From positions 744,001 through 808,000 of the forward strand of contig NZ_BMKD01000001.1 in assembly GCF_014643835.1 (NCBI RefSeq): a stretch of DNA of 64,000 bases. The letters are read 5' to 3'. Of the stretch, positions 1 to 1,654 are shown piece by piece (position 1 is the first letter of the stretch; each line of letters starts with the position of its first letter). The position numbers and the translations under genes are program-made. Source of the DNA: Mucilaginibacter rubeus. GTDB taxonomy: Bacteria > Bacteroidota > Bacteroidia > Sphingobacteriales > Sphingobacteriaceae. Below the pieces are notes generated by a model. It was not told the origin of the DNA. It saw only the letters and a program-made list of their open reading frames with translations, and did no database searches.

Positions 1-979
1 AACCTTTTTGCTTTTGCTCAAAAACGTTGGTAGCCAGCCATTGCTCATAGCGCAGCGGGTTGCTGATGGTTACTTCAGGATAGCTATCAGTTGGTGGTAA
101 AGCCGGGGCATCAACAGTATCCCGGTTGATAGGGTATGATTTTACTTTGTTGGCAGTACGCTCGATTTTGGTTAAACGCAATACTTCATCCAGACCTAAT
201 TTTTGGATAAGGTATTTCATACGGGCTTTGTTGCGGTTATTGCGTTCGCCGTAACGGTCAAAAACACGGATCACTGATTCGATATAAGGGATCAGCTGAT
301 CTTCTGGTAAGAACTCTTCAACAATACTGGCTAAAATTGGCTGTGCACCTAAACCGCCGCCAAGCATGATCTTAAACCCACGTTCGCCATTGGCGTTTAT
401 TTTAGGGATAGCACCGATATCATGAATGTATGAAAACGCTGTATCCTCATCGCTTGACGAGAAAGATATTTTAAATTTGCGGCCCATTTCCTGGCATATC
501 GGGTTACGCAGAAAATAATCAAACGTAGCATATGCGTAAGGGGAAACGTCAAATGGTTCTTTTGGGTCAATACCTGCAGTAGGAGAGGCTGTAACATTAC
601 GCACGGTATTGCCACATGCTTCGCGCAGGGTGATGTCATCCTGTGCAAGCTTAGCCCAAAGCTGGGGTGTACGGTCAAGACTTACATAGTGGATCTGGAT
701 GTCCTGGCGGGTGGTAAGGTGGAGATTACTGCTCCCAAACTCGTCAGAAATCTCGGCAATCTTCAATAGTTGCTTAAAGCTAACTTTACCAAAAGGTAGT
801 TTAATACGTACCATTTGCACGCCTGGCTGACGCTGGCCATAAACACCGCGCGCCAAGCGCAAGCTTCTGAATTTTTCATCATGAATTTTACCTTCACGAA
901 AAGCATGGATCTTTTTTTCAAGATCTATAATATCCTTCTCAACAATAGGGTTCTCCAGTTCCGTTCTGAAGCTCTGCAT
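1..979 (-). CDS. Sulfite/nitrite reductase (siroheme, ferredoxin-type), C-terminus beyond window
   Basis: Only the N-terminal 326 residues lie in the window; the left edge cuts the gene. Residues about 40-105 form the ferredoxin-like half-domain of the NirA/CysI family, with RGVYGQRQPGVQMVRIKLP (44-62) and LTTRQDIQIHYV (88-99). EACGNTVRNV (120-129) begins the siroheme-binding domain. The 4Fe-4S cysteines would lie in the missing part. The family reduces sulfite to sulfide or nitrite to ammonia with six electrons; sequence alone does not separate the two. The cysteine-codon leader upstream (1055-1135) favours sulfite reduction for cysteine synthesis. The start is the ATG at 977-979, just after the terminator hairpin. 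An Rrf2 regulator gene lies upstream on the same strand. Confidence 0.85.
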   Translation of the reverse strand, partial: MQSFRTELENPIVEKDIIDLEKKIHAFREGKIHDEKFRSLRLARGVYGQRQPGVQMVRIKLPFGKVSFKQLLKIAEISDEFGSSNLHLTTRQDIQIHYVSLDRTPQLWAKLAQDDITLREACGNTVRNVTASPTAGIDPKEPFDVSPYAYATFDYFLRNPICQEMGRKFKISFSSSDEDTAFSYIHDIGAIPKINANGERGFKIMLGGGLGAQPILASIVEEFLPEDQLIPYIESVIRVFDRYGERNNRNKARMKYLIQKLGLDEVLRLTKIERTANKVKSYPINRDTVDAPALPPTDSYPEVTISNPLRYEQWLATNVFEQKQKG

Positions 980-1001: not shown

Positions 1002-1033
1002 AAAAAAGCCCCTTTGGCTGTGGCTAAAGAGGC
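1002..1033 (-). terminator. Intrinsic terminator hairpin inside the sulfite reductase leader (attenuator)
   Basis: Read on the minus strand, arms GCCTCTTTAGC and GCCAAAGGGGC pair over 11 positions (one G.U, one mismatch) around the loop CACA. Six T follow at 1007-1002. The hairpin stands after the promoter and leader ORF and 22 nt before the start codon of the reductase, so it must be read through for the gene to be expressed. Confidence 0.75.
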
Positions 1034-1054
1034 ATATATGGTTAAATATTACGT

Positions 1055-1135
1055 TTACAGCCTCGTTTTCTCATTGCACATATAGCAATAAGTCAGCTGG
1101 TTAAGACAAGTAATATTAATGCTCTCACGATTCAT
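1055..1135 (-). CDS. Leader peptide with three Cys codons upstream of sulfite reductase
   Basis: A 26-codon ORF (ATG at 1133-1135, TAA at 1055-1057) contains cysteines at positions 10, 17 and 20, the last two in YCYMC. Its last codons (GAGGCTGT on the minus strand, 1064-1057) are complementary to parts of the downstream terminator: GCCTC at 1033-1029 or ACAGCC at 1021-1016. A ribosome that stops at Cys 17 or 20 would leave this stretch free to break the terminator, while one that reaches the stop codon would cover it. The ATG lies 4 nt after a perfect TAnnTTTG box, so the ORF is probably leaderless. The ORF and complementarity are visible; translation and attenuation are inferred. Confidence 0.55.
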   Translation of the reverse strand: MNRESINITCLNQLTYCYMCNEKTRL

Positions 1136-1139
1136 TTCC

Positions 1140-1147
1140 CAAATATA
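1140..1147 (-). promoter_or_regulatory. Bacteroidota -7 promoter box for the leader and sulfite reductase
   Basis: TATATTTG on the minus strand matches TAnnTTTG exactly. The expected transcription start is within a few bases of the leader ATG. No clear TTG -33 box is seen. Confidence 0.5.
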
Positions 1148-1219: not shown

Positions 1220-1654
1220 TTAAACGCTGATGAGGGTGGTTTCGCGTTTGATGATATCGGCGATGCTGGTTTCGCTTAATATTTTAAGTGTGGCATCTCT
1301 TACATCAACAAATACATCCCTTATGCCGCAAGTGCTTTCCTGGTGGCATTCATCGCATTTGTGGTAAAAGTTTAAGCTGGCGCAGGGCACCATGGCAATA
1401 GGTCCGTCGGTTATACGCATGATACTTACCAGGAATATTTCTTTGGGATCGCGGTTAAGGCTGTAGCCACCACCTGCTCCTTTTTTGCTGTAAAGAAACC
1501 CCGCATTGCGCAGATCAAGCAGTATCTGCTCAAGAAACTTTTTAGGGATTCGTTCAATTTCGGCAATCTTCGAAATTTGCATAGGCGGCTGGTCCATGTT
1601 CTTGCCAAGAACCACAAGTGCCTTTATAGCATACTTAGTTTTTTTTGAAAGCAT
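1220..1654 (-). CDS. Rrf2-family transcriptional regulator
   Basis: The 144-residue protein has the family layout: an N-terminal winged helix (residues 1-65, ending in the wing KKGAGGGYSLNRDP at 57-70) and a C-terminal dimerisation helix. Between them are four cysteines at 91, 100, 103 and 109. IscR and NsrR bind an Fe-S cluster with three cysteines in this loop, whereas CymR (cysteine repressor) lacks them, so a cluster or thiol sensor is likely here. It stands directly upstream of the sulfite reductase leader on the same strand and is a candidate regulator of sulfur assimilation or of Fe-S supply to the reductase. Confidence 0.88.
   Translation of the reverse strand: MLSKKTKYAIKALVVLGKNMDQPPMQISKIAEIERIPKKFLEQILLDLRNAGFLYSKKGAGGGYSLNRDPKEIFLVSIMRITDGPIAMVPCASLNFYHKCDECHQESTCGIRDVFVDVRDATLKILSETSIADIIKRETTLISV

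Follow-up and report, generated by a model that had tools for sequence, protein, structure and literature searches.

Putative ribosome-dependent attenuator reading cysteine codons upstream of sulfite reductase genes in Bacteroidota

The classical transcription attenuators that operate through a leader peptide are those of Proteobacteria (trp, his, thr, leu and ilv), and the Bacteroid-trp RNA acts as a trp leader. Bacteroid-trp (RF01692) is listed as a cis-regulatory RNA of Bacteroidetes (PMC2864571); this paper and the others cited here were available in part, and what we take from them refers to that part. For cysteine, the short ORF uORFC-8-2 precedes cysS in Rhodobacterales, carries tandem Cys codons, usually at positions 14 and 15, together with an intrinsic terminator, and is predicted to act by Cys attenuation (PMC8632094). 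Cys leader peptides have also been predicted for cys operons of Actinobacteria, without conserved terminators (PMC1262725), and the mycobacterial Cys leaders are, according to papers that cite the work, leaderless and act on translation (PMC9031893; PMC13236596). In F. psychrophilum there are 'strong clues' that amino-acid operons are attenuated through leader peptides, with no mention of cysteine in the available text (PMC9723704), and leader-peptide-like sORFs have been described in B. thetaiotaomicron (PMC7366714). Our search of the open literature by title and start of abstract, with subscription papers and supplements outside its scope, yielded no named Cys or Cys/Met attenuator in Bacteroidota among the matches listed. 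The preliminary description of the locus studied here knew of no described case of this form in this phylum, which agrees with our search as regards a cysteine attenuator; amino-acid leader attenuators in general were already suspected there.

The window analysed is a stretch of 64,000 nt from the soil bacterium Mucilaginibacter rubeus. All of the elements that had been reported in front of its sulfite reductase gene, namely a -7 box, a 26-codon ORF with Cys at 10, 17 and 20, a six-T terminator and the reductase start, lie where they had been placed. The features of the locus, in the direction of transcription, are:

1220-1654, minus strand (same strand as the reductase): Rrf2 regulator gene (Rrf2 match), upstream of the leader.
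1147-1140, minus strand: -7 promoter box TATATTTG, of the TAnnTTTG type, conserved in relatives; its end lies 4 nt 5' of the leader ATG, with GGAA as the spacer.
1135-1055, minus strand: leader ORF of 26 codons, MNRESINITCLNQLTYCYMCNEKTRL, with its ATG at 1135, a stop that ends at 1055, and Cys at 10, 17 and 20.
1106..1108, minus strand: Cys codon 10, 46 nt 5' of the antiterminator; position not conserved.
1085..1087, minus strand: Cys codon 17, 25 nt 5' of the antiterminator, by comparison the conserved regulatory position.
1076..1078, minus strand: Cys codon 20, 16 nt 5' of the antiterminator; Met codon 19 adjoins it.
1058..1062, minus strand: predicted 5' strand of the antiterminator, GGCTG, inside the last two codons of the leader ORF.
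1033-1008, minus strand: terminator hairpin GCCTCTTTAGCCACAGCCAAAGGGGC, predicted at -11.8 kcal/mol.
1022..1026, minus strand: predicted 3' strand of the antiterminator, TAGCC, at the top of the 5' arm of the terminator.
1007-1002, minus strand: U-tract of the terminator, TTTTTT (six T).
2..979, minus strand: sulfite/nitrite reductase, the putatively controlled gene (ATG at 979; Pfam NIR_SIR and NIR_SIR_ferr), cut by the window edge.

The leader peptide MNRESINITCLNQLTYCYMCNEKTRL has no match among NCBIfam families, and the window has none among 4,227 Rfam families at gathering score. Near the Rrf2 and reductase genes, at 1772-2056, lies a gene for a SelT/SelW/SelH-like (Rdx) protein. A CTAC-rich stretch at 1151-1170 is conserved in relatives, is shared by loci with and without a leader and overlaps the expected -33 region (by eye); it may serve as an operator for the Rrf2 protein encoded next to it. 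We rejected ACTAAATTGGT (or its complement) as a fixed operator motif, since only 4 of the 171 upstream regions described below contain it.

As relatives we used the best 80 of 582 named reductase loci, mainly from Mucilaginibacter, Pedobacter and Sphingobacterium, which together with the window make 81 loci. A leader was called where a distal TAnnTTTG box is followed 3-30 nt on by an ATG or GTG that opens at least 10 codons (the boxes of L014 and L037 deviate from TAnnTTTG and were let in by hand). By this rule 47 of the 81 loci, the window included, have a leader ORF, and 10 further loci have a box in range and no ORF. Cys occurs at least once in 46 of the 47 distal-box ORFs and at least twice in 40, and an intrinsic terminator stands between ORF and gene in 41 of the 47. 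Cys codons number 118/939 (12.6%) in frame, against 75/986 (7.6%, itself high) and 10/986 in the other two frames. The peptide is otherwise variable: that of a close relative, L001, differs from the window's at many residues and keeps the Cys cluster, and some in Pedobacter finish with MMCCCCKTQ or similar. Type strains with the leader include Pedobacter suwonensis, P. rhizosphaerae and Mucilaginibacter dorajii. In Sphingobacterium a leader was found in 0 of 15 loci. Whether relatives conserve the frame, the Cys codons and the place of the promoter had been set beforehand as a test of the preliminary description, and the result was favourable: the relatives keep the ORF, its Cys codons and the terminator, and they show covariation in the antiterminator.

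A few loci look like possible decayed leaders. L007, which has the sole distal-box ORF without Cys, keeps box and terminator and breaks one antiterminator pair; L032 has a box and no ORF by the rule; in L025 the promoter box lies immediately 5' of the terminator hairpin, and L024 resembles it, its hairpin being weaker (by eye).

The antiterminator is predicted from the ends of the leader ORFs. In 17 Mucilaginibacter leaders the ORF ends in GGCTR, which pairs with YAGCC at the top of the 5' arm of the terminator; 89.1% of cells are paired (against 85.3 ± 1.2), and covariation reaches 0.223 (against 0.143 ± 0.022), a value attained by 0 of 500 shuffles. This helix ends in a G-C pair in 10 leaders, in A-U in 5 and in G-U in 2; when six pairs are counted, the outermost is unpaired in 9, and L001 and L007 each break one inner pair. 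These 17 were chosen from 26 Mucilaginibacter leaders, the nine left out (L010, L014, L016-L019, L021, L026 and L086) having a different ORF end. With all 26 and a five-pair helix the signal is weaker (90.8% paired against 88.9 ± 0.8; covariation 0.193 against 0.158, 5 of 500 shuffles). GGCTT is present in 7 of the nine and pairs fully with an AAGCC located a few bases to the 5' side on that arm; as a general structure GGCTT x AAGCC was rejected, as over the 26 it is paired in 76.2% of cells and its covariation rises when it is shifted by one column. In Pedobacter the corresponding pairing reads GRCTG x CRGTC (n = 11), with motifs chosen by eye and L028-L030, L033, L034, L038 and L046 kept outside the set and read by eye.

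It had been proposed that the ORF end could pair with either of two segments of the terminator. The conserved pairing is GGCTR x YAGCC, which covaries (n = 17), whereas GAGGC x GCCTC was dropped as a conserved antiterminator: it is 75% paired and shows no double changes, and of its two outer pairs one is disrupted in 9 and the other in 11 of the 17 leaders. The latter pairing is possible in the window and gives the lowest-energy fold of its free RNA: when the RNA is exposed from nt 71 onward, GAGGC pairing is predicted to give a fold of -13.1 that lacks the terminator, and with exposure from nt 92 onward the terminator is predicted to form (-13.0). Duplexes predicted locus by locus are weak, with a mean z of -0.83 over 40 loci and p ≤ 0.05 in 3, and that of the window (z -1.61, p 0.09) is not significant. 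The covariation argues for a conserved antiterminator that would be exclusive with the terminator, the signal being weaker with all 26 leaders and weak in single loci.

The distance from Cys codon to antiterminator is fixed. All 16 Cys-bearing leaders of the Mucilaginibacter set of 17 have a Cys codon whose first base is exactly 25 nt upstream of the antiterminator, and in 15 of them the stop codon starts 5 nt past the first base of the antiterminator. In L023 the stop lies 7 nt before the antiterminator, 12 nt further upstream than usual, and the Cys distance is still 25 nt. Counted from GGCTT, a Cys codon stands at 25 nt in 7 of the nine left-out leaders, at 24 nt in L021 and at 21, 24 and 27 nt in L026. 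The Pedobacter distance is 21 or 22 nt in 9 of the 11 leaders, L047 (36, 30) and L059 (51, 27) being different. A ribosome whose A site holds a Cys codon covers about another 12 nt downstream, so the antiterminator would be left free, and a ribosome at the stop codon would cover it. The regulatory Cys codon thus appears to be placed such that a stalled ribosome would free the antiterminator and a finishing ribosome would hide it.

We extended the comparison to a sample of the class, in which 92 of 395 genomes carry the reductase; 90 of their upstream regions were analysed (G384 is at a contig edge and G137 was left out), and the window, the 80 named loci and these 90 make 171 upstream regions, two locus pairs among them being identical. 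A terminator is present in 97 of the 171. A short ORF with at least two Cys in nine residues, followed by a terminator with a U-tract, occurs in 70 (median dG -14.0). By family label, 14 of the 26 families of the class sample have at least one leader with at least three Cys in nine residues before the terminator, f2 being counted through L099 alone, the start of which is uncertain. Families f41 and f45 have one leader each with two Cys in nine, and ten of the 26 have no such leader, including f54 (0 of 9 genomes); in L150 a Cys/Met ORF is present and a terminator, by the rule, is not. Stronger leaders come from outside the window's family, for example MTNAQFDMKMMNTACCCCCLFPMRS (L126), MNYTIHTILNKGMMCCMMCCCPRGMEMSC (L138) and MKNTSKQNFSFHMCMCMCMCCCMRGDSGDLYSS (L161); the window's own copy, with three spread Cys, is by itself among the weaker leaders.

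Expected numbers of such runs were obtained by shuffling the region 5' of the first terminator, with the start Met not counted. Short ORFs with at least three Cys in nine residues before a terminator occur in 43 of the 171 regions against 0.8 expected; the same test gives 26 against 0.2 for Met, 23 against 17 for Leu, 14 against 9.2 for Ile, 22 against 5.6 for Asn, 18 against 2.4 for Thr and 8 against 1.0 for Val. Because shuffled sequences may contain fewer ORFs, we repeated the test per ORF, which gives 50 of 148 against 3.1 expected for Cys, 29 against 0.6 for Met, 21 against 6.6 for Thr, 23 against 9.2 for Asn, 8 against 4.3 for Val and 24 against 33.6 for Leu. Thr, Asn and Val are thus also somewhat above the control in both tests, which counts against the Cys/Met reading. 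Cys makes up 14.2% and Met 9.7% of residues in the 70 leaders; the corresponding values are 2.5% and 2.7% in a set of 67 further short ORFs that precede terminators, which were picked for low Cys, so that the Met contrast alone is independent. Met has a Cys no more than two residues away in 47 of 69 cases in the window and the loci up to L093 (20.7 ± 3.5 when permuted) and in 62 of 96 in the remaining leaders (25.8 ± 4.1). The Cys codons of the leaders are TGT in 138 cases and TGC in 102. These codon and shuffle statistics ignore shared descent, against which the count of families (14 of 26) is a safeguard. Taken together with its relatives, the Cys-leader arrangement of the window lies far outside what chance would give.

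The downstream genes belong to sulfate assimilation. At L001 the reductase is followed by ORFs resembling SUMT, a siroheme synthase/permease and a PAPS reductase (named by eye). Among 30 cysD loci, most of them from genomes that carry the reductase leader, 7 (L177, L185, L186, L188, L190, L191 and L192) are separate operons with a Cys/Met leader (at least three Cys in nine) and terminator of their own, in the order leader-cysC-cysD-cysN, with cysC and cysN assigned by eye; L175 and L199 pass a loose rule (two Cys in nine) and were not counted, and L171 and L174 have less than 1,500 nt upstream. In 8 of the 30 loci cysD lies less than 10 kb from the reductase, on the same strand by coordinates. 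Genes like metY/CGS were rejected as additional targets, since the loose rule was satisfied at a single locus of 30, by an unconvincing candidate 1.3 kb upstream. At L120 (G010) two consecutive short ORFs with CCCC runs are each followed by a terminator, as in apparent tandem Cys attenuators. More than one terminator also lies upstream of the reductase in L121, L126, L122, L129, L110 and L153.

The position of the promoter box suggests where transcription would begin. The TAnnTTTG box of F. psychrophilum occupies -12 to -5 (PMC9723704); on this spacing, an ATG that follows the box by 4 nt would be +1. Exactly this distance is found in the window and in 22 of the 47 ORFs of the 81-locus set; in the wider set it is found in 18 of 49 box-bearing leaders, 21 of the 70 leaders having no such box within reach, in a table that is approximate as the automatic choice took another or longer ORF in some loci (for example L019, L033, L064, L067 and L110). 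The leader is therefore often predicted to be leaderless. Leaderless mRNAs are rare in the phylum, at 5.5% in F. psychrophilum (PMC9723704), and about 3.7% of 5' UTRs in B. thetaiotaomicron are shorter than 10 nt (PMC7366714).

We propose, with a probability of roughly 0.86, that sulfate assimilation is controlled here by ribosome-dependent transcription attenuation, in which the leader reads Cys codons and probably also Met codons. The comparison of loci displays the ORF, the Cys/Met codons, the terminator, the covarying antiterminator, the fixed Cys-antiterminator distance and the gene context, and we infer stalling, termination in vivo, cysteine or methionine as the signal, and the start site. 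The transcript would begin with the leader ATG or just a few bases upstream. With ample charged tRNA-Cys, the ribosome would reach the stop codon and hide the ORF end, the terminator would form and the operon would be shut. With scarce charged tRNA-Cys, the ribosome would stall at the Cys cluster, and the ORF end GGCTG would be free to pair with TAGCC at the top of the 5' arm of the terminator; the terminator would then be unable to close, and the reductase operon would be read. The leader would thus very probably let the cell make its sulfate-assimilation enzymes only when cysteine, perhaps methionine, is short. The Cys-codon attenuation put forward in the preliminary description gains support from the conserved ORF, Cys codons and terminator and the covarying antiterminator, and now extends to Met enrichment and to many families. 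A still broader claim, to which we would give slightly better than even odds, is that throughout much of this class of Bacteroidota an attenuator reading Cys and Met, both of them end products of the pathway, serves as the regulon switch for cysCDN and the sulfite reductase operon; it would often be leaderless, and tandem in some genomes.

The nascent leader peptide, rich in Cys and Met, might itself be the sensor, binding metal or sensing thiol redox and arresting the ribosome to drive the same switch, and Met/Cys runs such as MCMCMCMCCCM (L161) do resemble metal ligands. Arrest peptides usually conserve sequence, however, and these peptides share no fixed sequence or spacing beyond their Cys/Met content. 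What is conserved is the distance from codon to antiterminator, and the genes are those of sulfate assimilation, including cysCDN, so that we consider a peptide sensor improbable. Translation attenuation, by which the ORF would govern access to the reductase start and the hairpin would be incidental, is how mycobacterial cys genes are described (PMC13236596, available text). It is a still less probable account of leaders in which the partner of the antiterminator is the terminator arm, not the reductase start, and in which the Cys-bearing ORF leads into a U-tract terminator as often (70/171) and as stably (-14.0) as reported above. The hairpin could also merely stop transcription from the Rrf2 gene, which lies upstream on the same strand, the ORF being there by chance; yet the conserved promoter box sits between Rrf2 and the hairpin, 46 of 47 ORFs contain Cys and the antiterminator covaries, and this explanation is scarcely credible.

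The attenuation reading that we prefer describes a real and widespread element of a known kind; as far as searched, its signal in this phylum and its mixed Cys/Met codon make-up are new. Bacteroidota would gain a testable amino-acid sensor for sulfur assimilation that works with near-leaderless translation. A single leader reading both sulfur amino acids, as the mixed Met/Cys codon clusters ahead of sulfate-assimilation operons suggest, would be a rarity, and we know of no other leader that does so. Box, Cys/Met ORF and terminator together offer a simple rule for finding the regulon in unannotated genomes.

Among known systems, Bacteroid-trp is another family, as the window does not match it; of 32 related genomes searched, 2 have a match at E ≤ 0.001 and none has one over the cut-off. 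The leader resembles uORFC-8-2 in combining a short Cys ORF with an intrinsic terminator and a prediction of Cys attenuation; uORFC-8-2, however, controls cysteinyl-tRNA synthetase, belongs to alpha-proteobacteria and, in the available text (PMC8632094), is described without mention of Met enrichment. With the poly-Cys leader ORFs of mycobacteria it shares a run of Cys codons before cys genes, leaderless in mycobacteria; those leaders differ, in the available text of the papers cited above, in belonging to Actinobacteria, lacking a conserved terminator hairpin and acting by translation attenuation, whereas the Bacteroidota leader has a terminator. Like the attenuators of Proteobacteria, it consists of a short ORF with codons for the end product, an intrinsic terminator and a predicted exclusive antiterminator, with the distance of the codon expected to set the stall. 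Unlike them, it belongs to Bacteroidota, uses Cys (and Met) codons, is often predicted to be leaderless, appears to work as a two-strand switch at the end of the ORF and occurs, apparently in tandem, in at least one relative.
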